Of a stretch of 64,000 bases of DNA, positions 7,074 to 31,031 are shown piece by piece. Positions within the stretch are counted from its first letter, which is position 1. Every line of letters starts with the position of its first letter. The translations under genes and the position numbers were made by a program. The stretch is from Nostoc sp. HK-01 (GTDB lineage: Bacteria; Cyanobacteriota; Cyanobacteriia; Cyanobacteriales; Nostocaceae), in the NCBI GenBank assembly GCA_003990705.1, contig AP018318.1:310001-374000 (forward strand). Direction: 5' to 3'. The notes under the pieces were generated by a model. It saw nothing but the letters and a program-made list of their open reading frames with translations, ran no database searches and was not told the origin of the DNA.

Positions 7074-7670
7074 CTAAACAACTTTAGCCTTGTTTAAAGC
7101 AACATCTACCTGAAGTAGTAGTGATTCTAGGGTAGAAGAGTTATCTAAAACAACATCTGCAAGAGCTATTTTTGCTACCAAAGGCAATTGGCTGGTAATT
7201 CTTGCTTGTGCTTGTTCTGGATGAAGATGATTTCTCTGGATTAATCTTTGCAACTGTTCTGCTTCCGAACAACTTACTACCCAAATTTCTGTAACTAAAT
7301 GTGTCATCTGTGCTTCAAACAACAGTGGAATAACTAACACCAGAGTTTCCGTAGTAGATGTAGTAATTGCTTGCAGAAAACAGTTTTTGACATAAGGGTG
7401 AATCAACTCTTCAACCCATTGGCGTTCTTGTTGATTTTGAAAGATAATTTCCCCTAGTTGCTGACGGTTGAGATTACCATTAGGAAGTAATATTTGTTCA
7501 CCGTAACGTTGAGCGATCGCCTGTAAAATAGGTGAACCAATAGAAACTGCATCTCTAGCATAAATATCCGCATCAAAAATCGGCAGGTGATAAGCACTGG
7601 CTAAATAATTAGCAACGGTGGTTTTACCGGTAGCAATTCCTCCAGTTAAGCCGATGATGCGTTTGGTCAT
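7074..7670 (-). CDS. coaE: dephospho-CoA kinase
   Basis: 198 residues, the usual length. It catalyses the last step of coenzyme A synthesis, phosphorylating the 3' hydroxyl of dephospho-CoA with ATP in the cytoplasm. The P-loop GLTGGIATGKTT lies at residues 7-18. FDADIYARDAV supplies the conserved Asp-Ala-Asp region, and the lid/CoA-binding segment is around HPYVKN and VVIPLLFEAQM. The gene follows cobA-hemD by 56 bp on the same strand and may be cotranscribed with it. The IS1 insertion is just past its 3' end. Confidence 0.95.
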   Translation of the reverse strand: MTKRIIGLTGGIATGKTTVANYLASAYHLPIFDADIYARDAVSIGSPILQAIAQRYGEQILLPNGNLNRQQLGEIIFQNQQERQWVEELIHPYVKNCFLQAITTSTTETLVLVIPLLFEAQMTHLVTEIWVVSCSEAEQLQRLIQRNHLHPEQAQARITSQLPLVAKIALADVVLDNSSTLESLLLQVDVALNKAKVV

Positions 7671-24788: not shown

Positions 24789-24932
24789 AACTCATACCAG
24801 TTGAAATTTTGGATTGATGATTGCTGTCTGCGGCTAGGTTCTATCAATCCATTTTTTCTATACTCCTCGCAGAATAATCAGCCTAAAACTCATACCCTGC
24901 ATCCGGTTAAGCCGTTTAATGCCCAATTTATT

Positions 24933-25586
24933 ATGCACACTCTACAGGATTTGACCACCGTAAATCCTGGTGTTAAAAATGATGAATTATTTTCGGTGCA
25001 TTTTGCCATTATGACGAAGGTTCAAAGATTAGCACACAAGATGTTGCAGTGCCAGGAAGAATCGGTCAGGTTTGCCGTGACACTCGTACCTACTGATAAC
25101 TCCCGTTTAGAAAAACTGGCGCAATTGATGGGTTACACTAAAAGCGCCTTTTGTAGTGAACTTATTGCGGCTGCTTTAGATGATATGGAGGAGGTAATAG
25201 ATACTCCTGACTCTCACATTGATAAATTTCTCCCTTCGGCTGAGGAATATGCTGAAGCTTTGACTGCGATTGAAGCCAGCCTGACAGTAGGACACCGAGC
25301 TATGTTAGTAGCTCATTACCATTTTCCTAATCGGACTACGACAACCACTGAATTAGCTAAAGCAGCTAGTTATGACCATTACGGTGCTGTTAACCTGCAA
25401 TATGCAAGGCTTGGCTATTTGCTGGCAAAATACTTAAATTGCTCTTTGCCAACTCATGCTGATGGTTCGCCATTTCCAACGGCACTCTTGGTTGAGTGGA
25501 GTTTTGAGGATATCTGGTACTGTACGTTGCATCCACAAGTAGCAGAAGCATTAGAAATGGTGGGATTAGTAAGTTGGCAAAGATAA
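24933..25586 (+). CDS. hypothetical protein, possible DNA-associated accessory domain
   Basis: 217 residues from the ATG at 24933. The frame extends upstream to a TTG at 24801, but that part looks non-coding. The middle (SRLEKLAQLMGYTKSAFCSE) resembles a small helix-turn-helix. The C-terminal half (HRAMLVAHYHFPNRTTTTTE and YDHYGAVNLQYARLGYLLAK) resembles a domain that I remember alongside HNH-type nucleases in other bacteria. No catalytic HNH motif is present here. The function is unknown. It is the gene toward which the minus-strand sRNA array would be transcribed. Confidence 0.6.
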   Translation: MHTLQDLTTVNPGVKNDELFSVHFAIMTKVQRLAHKMLQCQEESVRFAVTLVPTDNSRLEKLAQLMGYTKSAFCSELIAAALDDMEEVIDTPDSHIDKFLPSAEEYAEALTAIEASLTVGHRAMLVAHYHFPNRTTTTTELAKAASYDHYGAVNLQYARLGYLLAKYLNCSLPTHADGSPFPTALLVEWSFEDIWYCTLHPQVAEALEMVGLVSWQR

Positions 25587-25718
25587 GCCTGTTTGAGTTG
25601 TGAAAATTTTGGATGTTCTCTATCATTTGTTCTTGGTTATTAATTACAAATGATTGAGGAGTGCTTTCATATCTGCACCTTGGAAATCACACTCGCGGCC
25701 ATGATGTTTGCAATCAAT

Positions 25719-25777
25719 AAAAAAATCCCCCAGTGGTGGCAGCCGCCGGGGGAATTAGTTATCAGGGTGCATCTACC
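25719..25777 (-). ncRNA. nsiR1: NsiR1-like sRNA, unit 9 (last), altered hairpin
   Basis: The upper hairpin is replaced by a GC-rich one (GTGGTGGCAGCCGCC on the plus strand) while the closing TCCCCC/GGGGGA stem and seven-T tract are kept. Different bases forming the same fold argue that RNA structure is selected. TCCGGT box at 25808-25813. Confidence 0.7.
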
Positions 25778-25842
25778 AATTAATTGTTCTGTGTGCGATC
25801 GCCCTCAACCGGATAAAATTTTCCGATTCTGGCAATGGAGGC

Positions 25843-25903
25843 AAAAAAAATCCCCAGTCGGTGTAAACCAGCTAGGGGAATTAGTTATCAGGGTGCATCT
25901 ACC
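25843..25903 (-). ncRNA. nsiR1: NsiR1-like sRNA, unit 8
   Basis: As the consensus, but the run after the T tract side is four C rather than five on the plus strand, shortening the hairpin foot by one base. Confidence 0.7.
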
Positions 25904-25968
25904 AATTAATTGTTCTGTGTGCGATCGCCCTCAACCGGATAAAATTTTCTCATTCTGGCAATGGAGCC

Positions 25969-26030
25969 AAAAAAAATCCCCCAGTCGGTGTAAACCAGCT
26001 AGGGGAATTAGTTATCAGGGTGCATCTACC
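25969..26030 (-). ncRNA. nsiR1: NsiR1-like sRNA, unit 7
   Basis: Canonical hairpin and eight-T tract. One base change in the spacer (CTATGTGCG on the plus strand); TCCGGT box present. Confidence 0.7.
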
Positions 26031-26095
26031 AATTAATTGTTCTATGTGCGATCGCCCTCAACCGGATAAAATTTTCTCATTCTGGCAATGAAGGC

Positions 26096-26157
26096 AAAAA
26101 AAATCCCCCAGTCGGTGTAAACCAGCTAGGGGAATTAGTTATCAGGGTGCATCTACC
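26096..26157 (-). ncRNA. nsiR1: NsiR1-like sRNA, unit 6
   Basis: Canonical hairpin and eight-T tract, consensus spacer with HIP1 and TCCGGT box. Confidence 0.7.
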
Positions 26158-26221
26158 AATTAATTGTTCTGTGTGCGATCGCCCTCAACCGGATAAAATT
26201 TTCCGATTCTGGCAATGGAGC

Positions 26222-26283
26222 AAAAAAAATCCCCCAGTCGGTGTAAACCAGCTAGGGGAATTAGTTATCAGGGTGCATCTACC
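26222..26283 (-). ncRNA. nsiR1: NsiR1-like sRNA, unit 5
   Basis: Canonical hairpin and eight-T tract. The HIP1 site in the spacer is altered to GCGATCGT; TCCGGT box present. Confidence 0.7.
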
Positions 26284-26347
26284 AATTAATTGTTCTGTGT
26301 GCGATCGTCCTTAACCGGATAAAATTTTCCGATTCTGGCAATGGAGC

Positions 26348-26409
26348 AAAAAAAATCCCCCAGTCGGTGTAAACCAGCTAGGGGAATTAGTTATCAGGGT
26401 GCATCTACC
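26348..26409 (-). ncRNA. nsiR1: NsiR1-like sRNA, unit 4
   Basis: Canonical hairpin and eight-T tract. Spacer variant TTTATGCGATCG (plus strand) shared with unit 2; TCCGGT box present. Confidence 0.7.
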
Positions 26410-26473
26410 AATTAATTGTTCTTTATGCGATCGCCCTTAACCGGATAAAATTTTCCTATTCTGGCAATGAAGC

Positions 26474-26535
26474 AAAAAAAATCCCCCAGTCGGTGTAAAC
26501 CAGCTAGGGGAATTAGTTATCAGGGTGCATCTACC
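26474..26535 (-). ncRNA. nsiR1: NsiR1-like sRNA, unit 3
   Basis: Canonical hairpin and eight-T tract. The upstream spacer holds an intact HIP1 octamer and the TCCGGT box. Confidence 0.7.
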
Positions 26536-26600
26536 AATTAATTGTTCTGTGTGCGATCGCCCTCAACCGGATAAAATTTTCTCATTCTGGCAATGGAGCC

Positions 26601-26662
26601 AAAAAAAATCCCCCAGTCGGTGTAAACCAGCTAGGGGAATTAGTTATCAGGGTGCATCTACC
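26601..26662 (-). ncRNA. nsiR1: NsiR1-like sRNA, unit 2
   Basis: Canonical hairpin and eight-T tract on the minus strand. TCCGGT box at 26693-26698, centred about 34 bp before the inferred start. The HIP1 site between box and start is altered (GCGATCGT on the plus strand). Confidence 0.7.
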
Positions 26663-26729
26663 AATTAATTGTTCTTTATGCGATCGTCCTTAACCGGATA
26701 AAATACTCAAAATAATGGCTGTTCCACAT

Positions 26730-26789
26730 AAAAAATCCCCCAGCCGATGTTAAACAGCTAGGGGAGTTGAAGATCAAGGTGCATCTACC
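26730..26789 (-). ncRNA. nsiR1: NsiR1-like sRNA, unit 1 in transcription order (diverged)
   Basis: First unit on the minus strand. The hairpin loop region differs from the other copies but the closing stem TCCCC/GGGGGA and T tract remain. It is the only unit with a perfect TCCGGA box (26820-26825). The upstream sequence is also unique, with no HIP1 site. Start inferred from the shared GGTAGATGCACC. Confidence 0.65.
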
Positions 26790-26819
26790 AATCAAGTTTT
26801 CTCGGCAGATGCTAATCAA

Positions 26820-26825
26820 TCCGGA
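26820..26825 (-). promoter_or_regulatory. DIF+-like motif TCCGGA before the first sRNA unit
   Basis: A perfect TCCGGA, centred about 34 bp upstream of the inferred start at 26789. The other eight units carry TCCGGT at the same spacing. The DIF+ motif is known from heterocyst-specific promoters of Nostoc PCC 7120. I see no convincing -10 hexamer. Confidence 0.6.
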
Positions 26826-26830
26826 TAAAG

Positions 26831-27314: not shown

Positions 27315-30300
27315 ATGATAATAATAGATTGGCTGGCTGTTTGGGGCGTAACTCAAGCTGTCGGGTTTACTTTTAAACCGATTTTTGAGGAATTAGCAAA
27401 AGACGTAGTAAAAGACTGGGCTAAGGATTTATTAAAATGTATACCAAAGAACATTTCGCAGCAACTAAAAAAGGAAGATATTGAAATTGCTGCTGGTAAA
27501 GCATTAAAAGAATTTTTAGAATTAATGCAGCAGGAATTAGAAGATGCAGACATAGAAGAGATAGAACTCAAACAATATACGAAAATATTAAAGAATTTCA
27601 TTAGCAATCCATTTATCAGAGAAACTCTCGGTTATCCTTTCCAATCAGACTGTCAATTTTTAGATTATCAGGCACTTTCTCGTACTTGGTATGAAATGAA
27701 TTTACCGAATTTACCCCAAAAGTTTGATTGGGAAAGACTCACCAAAAGATATGTAAAAAAAGTAAAAGCAATTATTCGAGAATCAGATAAGTTACGCTCT
27801 CTATTAGATAGTCAAACTTTAGAGGAACTAAGTAAAAATCTGCAAAAAATAGCTGGAGTTCCCACAGATTTTGATTTACATAGATATCAAGAAGGACTTT
27901 ATGAGCGTTACGGCAATCTCAAGTTAGATAGTTTAGATACCACTGGGTATGCTTATAATGAATTGAAGTTATGGCGGATGTTTATTGCCCAGAATGTCCG
28001 GGAAGTTCACCAAGTTTTACCCCAAGTACATGAATTACCCAAAGAACATTTCAAAAAGCTCAGAGATGCTAATCAAATAGAAGCAGAAATTTTATTAGAA
28101 GAGTTAGAAGGCTACCGCAGAGTTTATTTTGAACAACCAATAGTTTCGGTTCTAGATATTATCAATAATCCAGTTTATAAATATATAGTTATTTTAGGTG
28201 ATCCAGGTTCAGGAAAATCAACGTTATTGCAATTTTTAGCACTAAATTGGGCAGAAACACCATTAAATAACATAATTTCTCAACCTATCCCTTTGTTAAT
28301 TGAGTTACGCACTTATATTAGAAGAAGAGAAAATAATGAGTGCAGTAATTTTTTAGAGTTTTTTCATAAATGTAGTGGCATAGTTCATCATCTCAATCAA
28401 AATCAACTACACGAACATTTAAAAACTGGCAATGCTTTAGTGATGTTTGATGGTTTAGATGAAGTTTTTGAATTAGGCAAAAGAGAAGATGTCATTACAG
28501 ACATTCATCGCTTTACTAATGTCTATCCTCATGTGCGGGTAATTGTCACTTCTCGCGTGATTGGCTATAAACCCCAACGCTTGCGAGATGCAGAATTTCG
28601 CCATTTTATGCTGCAAGATTTAGAAGCAGAACAGATTCAAGATTTTATCATTCGCTGGCATGAGTTAACGTTTCATGATGAAGAAGATAAGTTACGCAAA
28701 CGTGAGCGTTTACACAGAGCAATTGATACTTCAAAATCTATCGCAGAATTGGCAGGAAATCCGCTGTTATTAACGATGATGGCAATTCTCAATCGCAACC
28801 AAGAATTACCACGAGATAGAGCCACACTTTATGAACAAGCATCACGGGTGCTGCTACATCAATGGGATGTAGAACGCGCTTTGGTAGAAGATTCCCGCCT
28901 CGATCCAAAAACTATTGATTATAAAGATAAACAAGCAATGTTGCGTCAAGTTGCATATCACATGCAAACTAGTGCTAAAGGTTTGACTGGTAATTTAATT
29001 AGTGTTAATGATTTAGAAAAAATTTTGATTCGGTATTTAAAAAATATTGAATTTGAATACCCGACTAAAGTGGCGAGAGTGATGATTAATCAATTAAGGA
29101 CTCGCAATTTTATGTTATGTTTTTTAGGCGCAGATTATTATGCTTTTGTGCATCGTACTTTTTTAGAATATTTTTGTGCTTGGGAGTTTGTTTGGCAATT
29201 TAAAGAAACACAAACACTTTCTATTAAAGAATTAAATAATGAAGTTTTTGAAAAGCATTGGCGTTATGAAACTTGGCATGAAGTTTTGCGCCTGATTACG
29301 GGGATGATTGAGCCGCGGTTTGTTTGTGAAATTCTGGAATATTTAATGGCACAAAATGGGGAAGCAGAAAAGTTTATCAATCTTTTTTTAGCTGCTAAGT
29401 GCCTGGCAGAAGTGCGAAATCGGTTGTTAGTAACAACAACGGCGAATAAATTATTGCATCGGCTGAAAGAGTTAACTAAATATGACCTAGGTTATTATTA
29501 TCAACCTTATCGAGATGAAGAAGAAACTAAATTAGTTCAAGAAATTCGGACTAAAGCTGTAACATCTGTAGCAACGACTTGGAAAGATGATGCTGATACT
29601 TTAGTTTGGTTGAAACAACTGGCTAATGCTGATGAACATGAAGATGTGCGACGGACATCAGTGCAAGAATTGGCGAGAAGCTTTCGAGATCATGTTGATA
29701 CTTTGGTATGGCTAAAACAACGGGCGATCGCAGATAATGATTGGACGGTACGCCAAGTAGCATTGCAAGAATTAGCGAGAAATTTCAAAGATGATCTAGA
29801 AATTCTCCCTATGCTGCAACAACGCGCCACAACAGATGAGAATGAATATGTGCGCCAAGCCGCTGTGCAAGAATTAGCCAGAGGTTTTAAAGACAAACCC
29901 GATATTTTACACTGGCTGAAACAGCGTGTGACTGCGGATAATTCTGGGACAGTGCGACAAGTTGCAGTGCAAGAATTAGCGCGAAGCTTTAAAGATGACT
30001 TAGAAACTCTTGTTTGGCTAAAACAACGCACCACTGATAATGACTGGACTGTGCGCCAAGTTGCAGTGCAAGAATTAGCCAGGGGTTTTAAAGATGATCT
30101 TGATACTCTTTTTATCCTTAAACAATGCGCTATTACAGATGAGAACGAATATGTGCGCCAAGCTGCTGTGCAAGAATTAGCCAGGGTTTTCAAAGACGAT
30201 GCTGATACTTTCTTCATTCTGCAACAATGCGCCATATCTGATAAATATTCGGGTGTACGACAAACCGCAGTTGAGGAATTGGCGAGGGGTTTCAAAGAAG

Positions 30301-31031
30301 AACCAGAAATTTTGCCTTGGCTAAAACAACGTACTACGGCTGATAATGATCAGTATGTGCGTCGCGCTGCTATGCAAGAATTAGCTAGGGGATTTAAAGA
30401 TGATCCTGATACTCTCTTGATTTTGCAACAACGAGCGATCGCTGATCAATATTCTGATGTGCGCCGCGCCGCCGTGCAAGAATTAGCGAGGGGATTCAAA
30501 AATTACCCCGATACTTTGCTGATTTTAAAACAACGCGCCACAACAGATGATAATGAATATGTTCGCCGCACAGCATTGCAAGAACTCGCTAAGAATTTCA
30601 CAAATGACCTTGATATTCTTCCCATCCTGAAAAAACACGCGACATCAGATAAATATGCAGATGTGCGCCAAGCCGCTGTGCAAGAATTAGCCAGAAGATT
30701 CAAAAATGATCCTGAAACTCTCGTCATTCTCAAAAAACGCGCCACTGTAGATAAATCATCTAATGTGCGACAAGTGGCTGTGCAAGAGTTAGCCAGAGGT
30801 TTTAAAGACCAACTTGATTTGTTTGAAGTGTTTTACACCTGTGCTATTAATGACCCTTTTACACGGGAATATAGTTTTCAAGATAACCCCCGCCAAGTTG
30901 CACTAGAAGCAATTACCGAACAATATCCCCACTATCCACAAACATTACCATTGTTGCGCGATCGCGCCGCCAATGACCCAGATGAGCAAGTGCGCGACTT
31001 GGCTAAAAAAAAGTTAGCAGAATTAGGCTAA
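27315..31031 (+). CDS. NACHT NTPase with C-terminal HEAT-type repeats, candidate defence protein
   Basis: 1238 residues. The N-terminal region (about 1-270) is helical, starts hydrophobically (IIIDWLAVWGVTQAVGFTF) and matches no domain I can name. The NACHT domain (about 285-620) has Walker A ILGDPGSGKSTLLQF near 293, Walker B ALVMFDGLDEVFE near 376, the sensor VIVTSRVIGY and a helical arm with GNPLLLTMMAILNR. From about residue 760 there are 12 clear repeats of 34-36 residues built on VRQAAVQELARGFKDD, plus two degenerate ones at the end. Bacterial NACHT proteins (bNACHT, Avs-related STAND NTPases) include antiphage sensors in which such repeats detect the trigger. Here that role is inferred. 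No effector domain or partner gene is evident. Confidence 0.9.
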   Translation: MIIIDWLAVWGVTQAVGFTFKPIFEELAKDVVKDWAKDLLKCIPKNISQQLKKEDIEIAAGKALKEFLELMQQELEDADIEEIELKQYTKILKNFISNPFIRETLGYPFQSDCQFLDYQALSRTWYEMNLPNLPQKFDWERLTKRYVKKVKAIIRESDKLRSLLDSQTLEELSKNLQKIAGVPTDFDLHRYQEGLYERYGNLKLDSLDTTGYAYNELKLWRMFIAQNVREVHQVLPQVHELPKEHFKKLRDANQIEAEILLEELEGYRRVYFEQPIVSVLDIINNPVYKYIVILGDPGSGKSTLLQFLALNWAETPLNNIISQPIPLLIELRTYIRRRENNECSNFLEFFHKCSGIVHHLNQNQLHEHLKTGNALVMFDGLDEVFELGKREDVITDIHRFTNVYPHVRVIVTSRVIGYKPQRLRDAEFRHFMLQDLEAEQIQDFIIRWHELTFHDEEDKLRKRERLHRAIDTSKSIAELAGNPLLLTMMAILNRNQELPRDRATLYEQASRVLLHQWDVERALVEDSRLDPKTIDYKDKQAMLRQVAYHMQTSAKGLTGNLISVNDLEKILIRYLKNIEFEYPTKVARVMINQLRTRNFMLCFLGADYYAFVHRTFLEYFCAWEFVWQFKETQTLSIKELNNEVFEKHWRYETWHEVLRLITGMIEPRFVCEILEYLMAQNGEAEKFINLFLAAKCLAEVRNRLLVTTTANKLLHRLKELTKYDLGYYYQPYRDEEETKLVQEIRTKAVTSVATTWKDDADTLVWLKQLANADEHEDVRRTSVQELARSFRDHVDTLVWLKQRAIADNDWTVRQVALQELARNFKDDLEILPMLQQRATTDENEYVRQAAVQELARGFKDKPDILHWLKQRVTADNSGTVRQVAVQELARSFKDDLETLVWLKQRTTDNDWTVRQVAVQELARGFKDDLDTLFILKQCAITDENEYVRQAAVQELARVFKDDADTFFILQQCAISDKYSGVRQTAVEELARGFKEEPEILPWLKQRTTADNDQYVRRAAMQELARGFKDDPDTLLILQQRAIADQYSDVRRAAVQELARGFKNYPDTLLILKQRATTDDNEYVRRTALQELAKNFTNDLDILPILKKHATSDKYADVRQAAVQELARRFKNDPETLVILKKRATVDKSSNVRQVAVQELARGFKDQLDLFEVFYTCAINDPFTREYSFQDNPRQVALEAITEQYPHYPQTLPLLRDRAANDPDEQVRDLAKKKLAELG

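Follow-up and report, generated by a model that had tools for sequence, protein, structure and literature searches.

The window analysed here, a 64,000-nt stretch of the Nostoc sp. HK-01 genome, carries an array of nine direct repeats on the minus strand, at positions 25719-26790 and with a period of 126-127 bp (TRF score 1753-1766). The initial annotation had described these repeats, and both its count and its coordinates were right. All nine units score above the gathering threshold of 39 of the Rfam covariance model for NsiR1 (RF02399), so chance matches are not a concern for this array. NsiR1 is a known small-RNA gene of filamentous cyanobacteria with a part in committing cells to nitrogen fixation. 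We numbered the units W1 to W9 in the order of transcription and list them with their flanking genes in Table 1.

Table 1. Features of the NsiR1 array and its flanks (positions in the window; the fourth column gives the first G of GGTAGATGCACC in each unit)
Feature	Position	Strand	First G	Evidence
Conserved hypothetical gene, left flank	24801..25586	+		no Pfam match
NsiR1 unit W9, class 2 5' end, different hairpin	25719..25778	-	25777	RF02399 63.6 bits; fold
TCCGGT box of W9	25808..25813	-
NsiR1 unit W8, class 2, terminator stem one G shorter	25843..25904	-	25903	RF02399 70.8 bits; fold
TCCGGT box of W8	25934..25939	-
NsiR1 unit W7, class 2	25970..26031	-	26030	RF02399 73.4 bits
TCCGGT box of W7	26061..26066	-
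NsiR1 unit W6, class 2	26097..26158	-	26157	RF02399 73.4 bits
TCCGGT box of W6	26188..26193	-
NsiR1 unit W5, class 2	26223..26284	-	26283	RF02399 73.4 bits
TCCGGT box of W5	26314..26319	-
NsiR1 unit W4, class 2	26349..26410	-	26409	RF02399 73.4 bits
TCCGGT box of W4	26440..26445	-
NsiR1 unit W3, class 2	26475..26536	-	26535	RF02399 73.4 bits
TCCGGT box of W3	26566..26571	-
NsiR1 unit W2, class 2	26602..26663	-	26662	RF02399 73.4 bits
TCCGGT box of W2	26693..26698	-
NsiR1 unit W1, class 1 (NsiR1.1 type, 5' end GGTAGATGCACCTTGATCTTCAAC), first transcribed	26729..26790	-	26789	RF02399 63.3 bits
TCCGGA box of W1	26820..26825	-
NACHT gene (NNH2 + NACHT + HEAT repeats), right flank	27315..31031	+		Pfam domains

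Each of the nine units is preceded by a TCCGG box, centred 33 nt 5' of the first G of GGTAGATGCACC and not ~34 as originally claimed. The box reads TCCGGA before W1 and TCCGGT, one base off the consensus, before the other eight units. According to PMC6133370, the DIF1 consensus TCCGGA lies at -35, and one mismatch was tolerated when 58 such promoters were gathered. The covariance scores and the fixed distance of the boxes thus bear out the view that these are NsiR1 genes with DIF-type boxes. A terminator hairpin is predicted for all four distinct RNA sequences in the array (z-scores -1.45, -1.76, -2.43, and -4.19), and a run of T's follows the hairpin in each unit. With ends read off the sequence and the folds, each unit is predicted to yield a ~60-nt RNA with an intrinsic terminator. 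It had been noted that the end units alter the hairpin bases and keep the fold; the hairpins agree with this, but W1 also differs in the 5' half of the RNA (CCTTGATCTTCAAC in place of CCCTGATAACTAAT). A forward open frame of 128 codons (25650-26036) crosses the repeats; because 126 is a multiple of 3, it is probably a mechanical product of the repeat period and not a gene.

We then searched the eight contigs (7.5 Mb) of the genome for further NsiR1 copies. A degenerate second array (array 2; C1:41826-42663) lies 293 kb from the window array; two of its units are good (72.7 bits) and several others have decayed. A single copy of 51 nt (C1:2106238-2106288, L010:7239-7289; 49.4 bits) with a TCCGGA box sits between a tetrapyrrole methylase gene and lgt, and a weaker one (C1:1053037-1053093; 34.9 bits) falls under the RF02399 cut-off. 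Both single copies retain TCCGGA and most of the 5' end, and their terminators are different. With two arrays and dispersed single copies in the genome, the initial designation of the window array as the NsiR1 locus of the strain does not hold. A weak pair at C1:1903071 and 1903425 (25.6 and 26.4 bits) was excluded as NsiR1, having no TCCGG box within 60 nt upstream; its hairpins, 354 bp apart (L012:7072-7127 and 7426-7479), are NsiR1-like. All 11 genomes of the genus have NsiR1 matches above the cut-off; at E<=0.01 the number per genome ranges from 10 to 18, and in every genome one of the matches is 51 nt long and scores 49.4-50.3 bits. In G023 and G078, a copy of this 51-nt type is the sole NsiR1 match at E<=1e-4; neither genome has a HetF match at E<=1e-100.

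The initial annotation held that hetF is not beside the array and asked where in the genome it lies. We located hetF through the gene that adjoins the arrays in two genomes of the genus, G003 and G004, and matched it in the HK-01 genome, where its product scores 1396 bits against a cut-off of 1200 for NF045509 (NCBIfam; CellDiv_HetF). Choosing hetF by its CHAT domain alone was dropped, as the genome has 53 CHAT matches (C1:1274158 among those inspected). The gene is indeed not beside the array: it lies at C1:3190945 onwards, 2.85 Mb away. No NsiR1 match at E<=1 was found in the 19.9 kb around it (L216, L078), and the cis-antisense arrangement, in which the array is divergent from hetF and NsiR1.1 overlaps the hetF 5' UTR, is absent from this genome.

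The unusual setting is not specific to the strain. In nine of the 11 genus genomes, the hetF start ATG-GAA-TTT replaces GTG-ACC-CAG-GAA-TTT; the sequence is kept from GAATTTCAC onward, with an ATG before it and a different leader. These nine genomes form one group in a single-gene hetF tree of 14 rows (support 97/97), so the altered start and leader likely arose in one event. An array lies directly upstream of hetF in the other two, G003 and G004, and 6 kb upstream of it in G007; in the other eight genomes, the listed copies are 0.59-2.85 Mb from hetF (G000, G001, and G002) or on other contigs.

To place this in the family, we examined 118 genomes, all with NsiR1 and 115 of them with HetF at E<=1e-100. 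NsiR1 lies within about 4 kb upstream of hetF in 105/115 (35 by the first search plus 70 of 75 searched again). For the latter, upstream pieces, some shortened by contig ends, were scanned with our own model R1 (22 sequences, four from the window and five from elsewhere in its genome), and the 10 loci without a listed R1 row were searched once more, with matches in five. Half of the 10 exceptions belong to the window's genus (G000, G002, G006, G008, and G010). The R1 scan of the upstream pieces found no NsiR1 upstream of hetF in G076, G102, and G064; G076 and G064 carry arrays elsewhere in the genome, and G102 is less certain, its pieces stopping at contig ends. The last two exceptions, G015 and G101, offer <400 nt of upstream DNA to inspect.

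A second count, over named genomes, relied on a seed pattern and not on the covariance model, and covered less than 5 kb where a contig ends: an NsiR1 seed lies <=5 kb upstream in 75 of the 80 hetF loci, mostly about 195 nt before the start. Among them are Nostoc sp. FACHB-110 and FACHB-152 (L302 and L301), which belong to the same genus as the window strain and have the array directly upstream of hetF, with 191 and 193 nt between the nearest seed and the hetF start. The five loci without an upstream seed are exactly the five in which hetF starts with ATG-GAA-TTT, as in the window strain: Nostoc sp. CHAB 5844, TH1S01, FACHB-280, and LEGE 06077, and N. spongiaeforme FACHB-130. LEGE 06077 (G007) is unlike the window strain in that its array, beside a leuS-like gene, is the one found 6 kb upstream of hetF. 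Twelve repeats upstream of hetF are also described for Nodularia spumigena in PMC3610870. On these counts, the linkage of array and hetF is very probably ancestral; it was lost in the window's clade and apparently, on separate occasions, in two other genera (G076/G102 and G064).

Gene order offers a clue to where the ancestral array stood. G003 has PII-...-S8 peptidase-trx-array-hetF and the outgroup G055 has trx-array-hetF, and the window genome reads PII-...-S8 peptidase-trx-array 2-moaA-rpsD-...-hetR, an order shared by G002 and, as far as seen, by G009. Here moaA and hetR (L009:12744-13643) are profile-confirmed; the labels trx, PII, S8 peptidase, rpsD, leuS, ferredoxin, and catalase-like are our reading of the sequences, and the 107-aa gene labelled trx has no Pfam match. 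Because the neighbours of array 2 match those of the hetF-linked arrays in G003 and G055, gene order indicates that the ancestral site is that of array 2 and not that of the window array.

Units of G003 correspond to units of both arrays of the window genome. Of the seven pieces that make up array 2, six can be matched, in order, to units 15, 14, 13, 12, 11, and 11 of G003; the seventh is a fragment with no good match among the G003 units. W1 is 0.90 identical to G003 unit 1, the hetF-proximal one, and seven of the units W2-W9 are nearest to G003 unit 2, the lead over units 1, 3, or 4 often being small. The simplest reading of these matches, distal for array 2 and proximal for the window, suggests that the ancestral array broke internally and that its hetF-proximal part became the window array. 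No moaA was found downstream of hetF in the 14-17 kb examined in G003 and G004; its place beside array 2 is thus a point against our best explanation. G007, with its array only 6 kb from hetF, is another, and makes any order of the rearrangements tentative; it falls inside the nine-genome group, and this short distance may be a later return. Two of the arrays in G006 are at contig ends.

What could an array without hetF act upon? In PCC 7120, as set out in PMC9045159, hetF is preceded by 12 NsiR1 copies, of which NsiR1.1 runs antisense to the hetF 5' UTR and inhibits hetF translation. The hetP-like gene alr3234 acts as a brake on commitment; NsiR1.4 binds to its start region, and cells commit earlier when NsiR1.4 is overexpressed. 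PMC8406250 places the hetF transcription start within nsiR1.2 and describes promoter fusions little changed by an altered nsiR1.1 -10 box.

We compared NsiR1 with the start regions of HetP-family genes, which we divided by eye, from score order and start sequence, into 21 alr3234-like (L225-L245) and nine HetP-like starts (L246-L254). The 21 genes like C1:1709976-1710359 share UCAGGGUU...AUGAACUACC or parts of it, complementary to both ends of the conserved NsiR1 5' end GGUAGAUGCACCCUGAUAAC. CAGGG occurs in 15/21 and CTACC in 13/21 of these starts, each in 0/9 of the HetP-like ones; TCAGGG is missing from 8/21, and two of the 21 (L231 and L238) have stops in the matched frame. Mean pairing with the NsiR1 5' end is -17.0 kcal/mol for the alr3234-like starts, a value reached by 0/300 shuffled RNAs, and -9.1 kcal/mol for the HetP-like starts. 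Repeating this with the window's own NsiR1 letters gave -16.7 kcal/mol, again with 0/300 shuffles reaching it; the shuffles preserve base composition alone. W1 pairs less well with the alr3234-like starts (-14.1 versus -16.7 kcal/mol on average), which agrees with the preference for NsiR1.4 that has been published for alr3234.

Within the window's own genome, the start of the candidate at C1:1709976 pairs at -16.4 kcal/mol, and 6/116 other gene starts do equally well or better (26/116 when W1 is the partner); these 116 are ORFs of at least 150 codons in the fetched stretches of the genome, not in the whole of it. Because six background starts pair as well, support for the predicted target comes from cross-species conservation and not from the own genome. 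The orthology of the candidates with alr3234 is putative, following from family and start-site motif, and they mostly read Met-Asn-Tyr, versus the Tyr right after Met reported for alr3234 in PMC9045159. The hetP-like gene L086 was ruled out as a target: its start pairs with W2 at -7.9 kcal/mol, and 96/116 other starts are as good.

Other accounts of the displaced array have to be weighed against this one. Its flanks vary among relatives: by eye, a protein start resembling the product of the left-flank gene is found beside the array in G001, G002, G005, G007, G008, G009, and G010, and on its right the window-type array is flanked by the NACHT gene in six genomes (own, G001, G002, G005, G009, and G010), whereas G007 has a leuS-like and G008 a catalase-like gene there, so the site stayed mobile. 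The HEAT repeats of the NACHT protein are visible as tandem repeats in the DNA. Since the NACHT gene is divergent from W1 and adjoins it in those six genomes, W1 might have turned into a cis-antisense or regulatory element of this neighbour. We regard this as very unlikely: W1 lies 525 bp from the NACHT start and is kept in G007 and G008, where no NACHT gene stands beside the array. By eye, the six-genome alignment is conserved directly upstream of NACHT and not in the middle of the interval, so the NACHT promoter is probably outside the array. We give still less credence to the view that the array is a decaying, functionless relic, made superfluous by array 2 and the single copies. It is true that hetF is gone from it and that copy number differs among relatives (3 to 11 seed matches at window-type sites in the genomes seen); against this, the RNAs of six of the nine units are identical (73.4 bits), all nine boxes are retained, and decay is seen in array 2 and not here.

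A stronger alternative, although one we doubt somewhat more than we believe it, is that the relocated hetF is still regulated, now in trans, through pairing of the NsiR1 seed UAGAUGC with GCAUCUA in its new leader. In all nine relocated leaders, GGGCATCTATTG or GAGCATCTATTG is present some 60 nt ahead of the start, and in 70/88 other leaders (last 115 nt) GCATCTA stands in a best-conserved block (GGATGCATCTAA), outside the overlap. The two leader types, compared through one leader each (G003 versus own), align no better than chance, 401/500 shuffles scoring as well, so GCATCTA is not simply inherited sequence, and partial regulation of hetF by NsiR1.4 is reported in PMC9045159. Yet shuffled NsiR1 RNAs pair as well in 33/300 (class 2) and 23/300 trials (class 1), 19/116 and 10/116 other leaders of the own genome pair as well or better, 18/88 other leaders are without GCATCTA, and the nine relocated leaders, being related, amount to a single event. 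The shuffled-7-mer control (102/111 leaders, with the relocated ones among them and several genomes entered twice; the set of 88 excludes the relocated ones) is weak for the same reason of relatedness. The 88-leader consensus also contains an inverted repeat, TTGAAAC...GTTTCAA, before the hetF start.

The proposed displacement of the array also bears on what the NsiR1.1-type unit does. Among 588 distinct units collected by their seed, 393 are class 2 (CCCTGATAACT), 75 are class 1 (CCTTGATCT), and 120 are neither; the way this set was collected makes conservation of the seed and of the class-defining bases inevitable. The TCAAC that follows the class 1-defining bases took no part in the collection and is conserved too, and the terminators vary. 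Conservation of the 5' end, strong across the family, would not be expected from a cis-antisense role alone, because complementarity to the partner is guaranteed for such an RNA whatever its sequence. Where array and hetF are linked, this DNA is also used by the hetF mRNA or promoter, a constraint that is gone in the unlinked clade. W1 is found in the eight of the nine clade genomes seen (G006 being the other), with GGTAGATGCACCTTGATCTTCAAC identical in seven of them and one change in G007; this retention of the 5' end after hetF left points to a function of class 1 in trans. We suggest, tentatively and at a little short of even odds, that class 1 (GGUAGAUGCACCUUGAUCUUCAAC) is a separately conserved trans RNA with targets of its own, not mainly a cis-antisense RNA of hetF, and that the 51-nt copy is a third trans branch. 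Possible class 1 targets are the hetF leader, via GCAUCUA, and a short HetP-family gene at C1:2970243-2970515 (L255; Asl1930-like by length). The L255 start, the best lead among class 1 targets, pairs with W1 at -18.5 kcal/mol (1/116 starts as good) and with the 51-nt single-copy RNA at -21.6 kcal/mol (0/116). Across 24 relatives of L255 (24 of 30 fetched loci were used), the observed pairing was reached by 0/200 shuffles of the single-copy RNA, 2/200 of W1, and 1/200 of W2. GUGCAU or AUGCAUC is often found at the start codon in these relatives. A near-perfect own-genome target of the W1-specific 16-mer was dropped as a candidate: besides the unit itself there are three hits with 1-2 mismatches, all in open frames, and the reversed control gives more hits (5+5 versus 1+3).

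Overall, we favour, with a probability of roughly 0.8, the explanation that the window holds a displaced, hetF-proximal NsiR1 array that acts in trans on a HetP-family gene. In the ancestor of the nine-genome clade, the array-hetF locus would have broken inside the array and at the hetF start; hetF would have gained a new leader elsewhere, and the proximal units would have been re-amplified at the present site. From the nine tandem genes, all of which have a DIF-type box and an intrinsic terminator of their own, ~60-nt RNAs would then be made when HetR, by homology, switches the units on in cells becoming heterocysts. Their conserved 5' end would pair with the translation start of the commitment gene, for which the putative alr3234 orthologue at C1:1709976-1710359 is the candidate; its repression would ease commitment to differentiation, the many copies providing dose. 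The NsiR1.1-hetF overlap known from PCC 7120 is missing here. The identity of the units, their boxes and hairpins, the second array, the relocation of hetF with its new leader, and the cross-species pairing signal are the parts that the sequence shows; expression, HetR dependence, target repression, the internal break, and the order of the rearrangements are those we infer.

The window array resembles that of PCC 7120 in its ~60-nt RNAs, its tandem arrangement with a TCCGG-type box near -35 of every unit, its identical central and diverged outer units, and its distinct end unit (NsiR1.1 there, W1 here). It differs in having nine units instead of 12, no adjacent hetF, and eight TCCGGT boxes, and in the second array and dispersed single copies elsewhere in the genome. 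The NsiR1 family is known, and the split, hetF-unlinked arrangement appears to be new: a survey of paper listings and selected passages showed no report of a split or unlinked array, which is not proof of absence.

The published model assigns NsiR1 two modes, cis-antisense action of NsiR1.1 on hetF and trans repression of alr3234 by NsiR1.4. Throughout most of the family, these modes are hard to separate genetically because the array and hetF share DNA. The window's clade separates them naturally, so that the need of the overlap for silencing hetF in heterocysts becomes directly testable. A further suggestion from this locus is that rearrangements can break within a tandem sRNA array whose RNAs nonetheless remain conserved.
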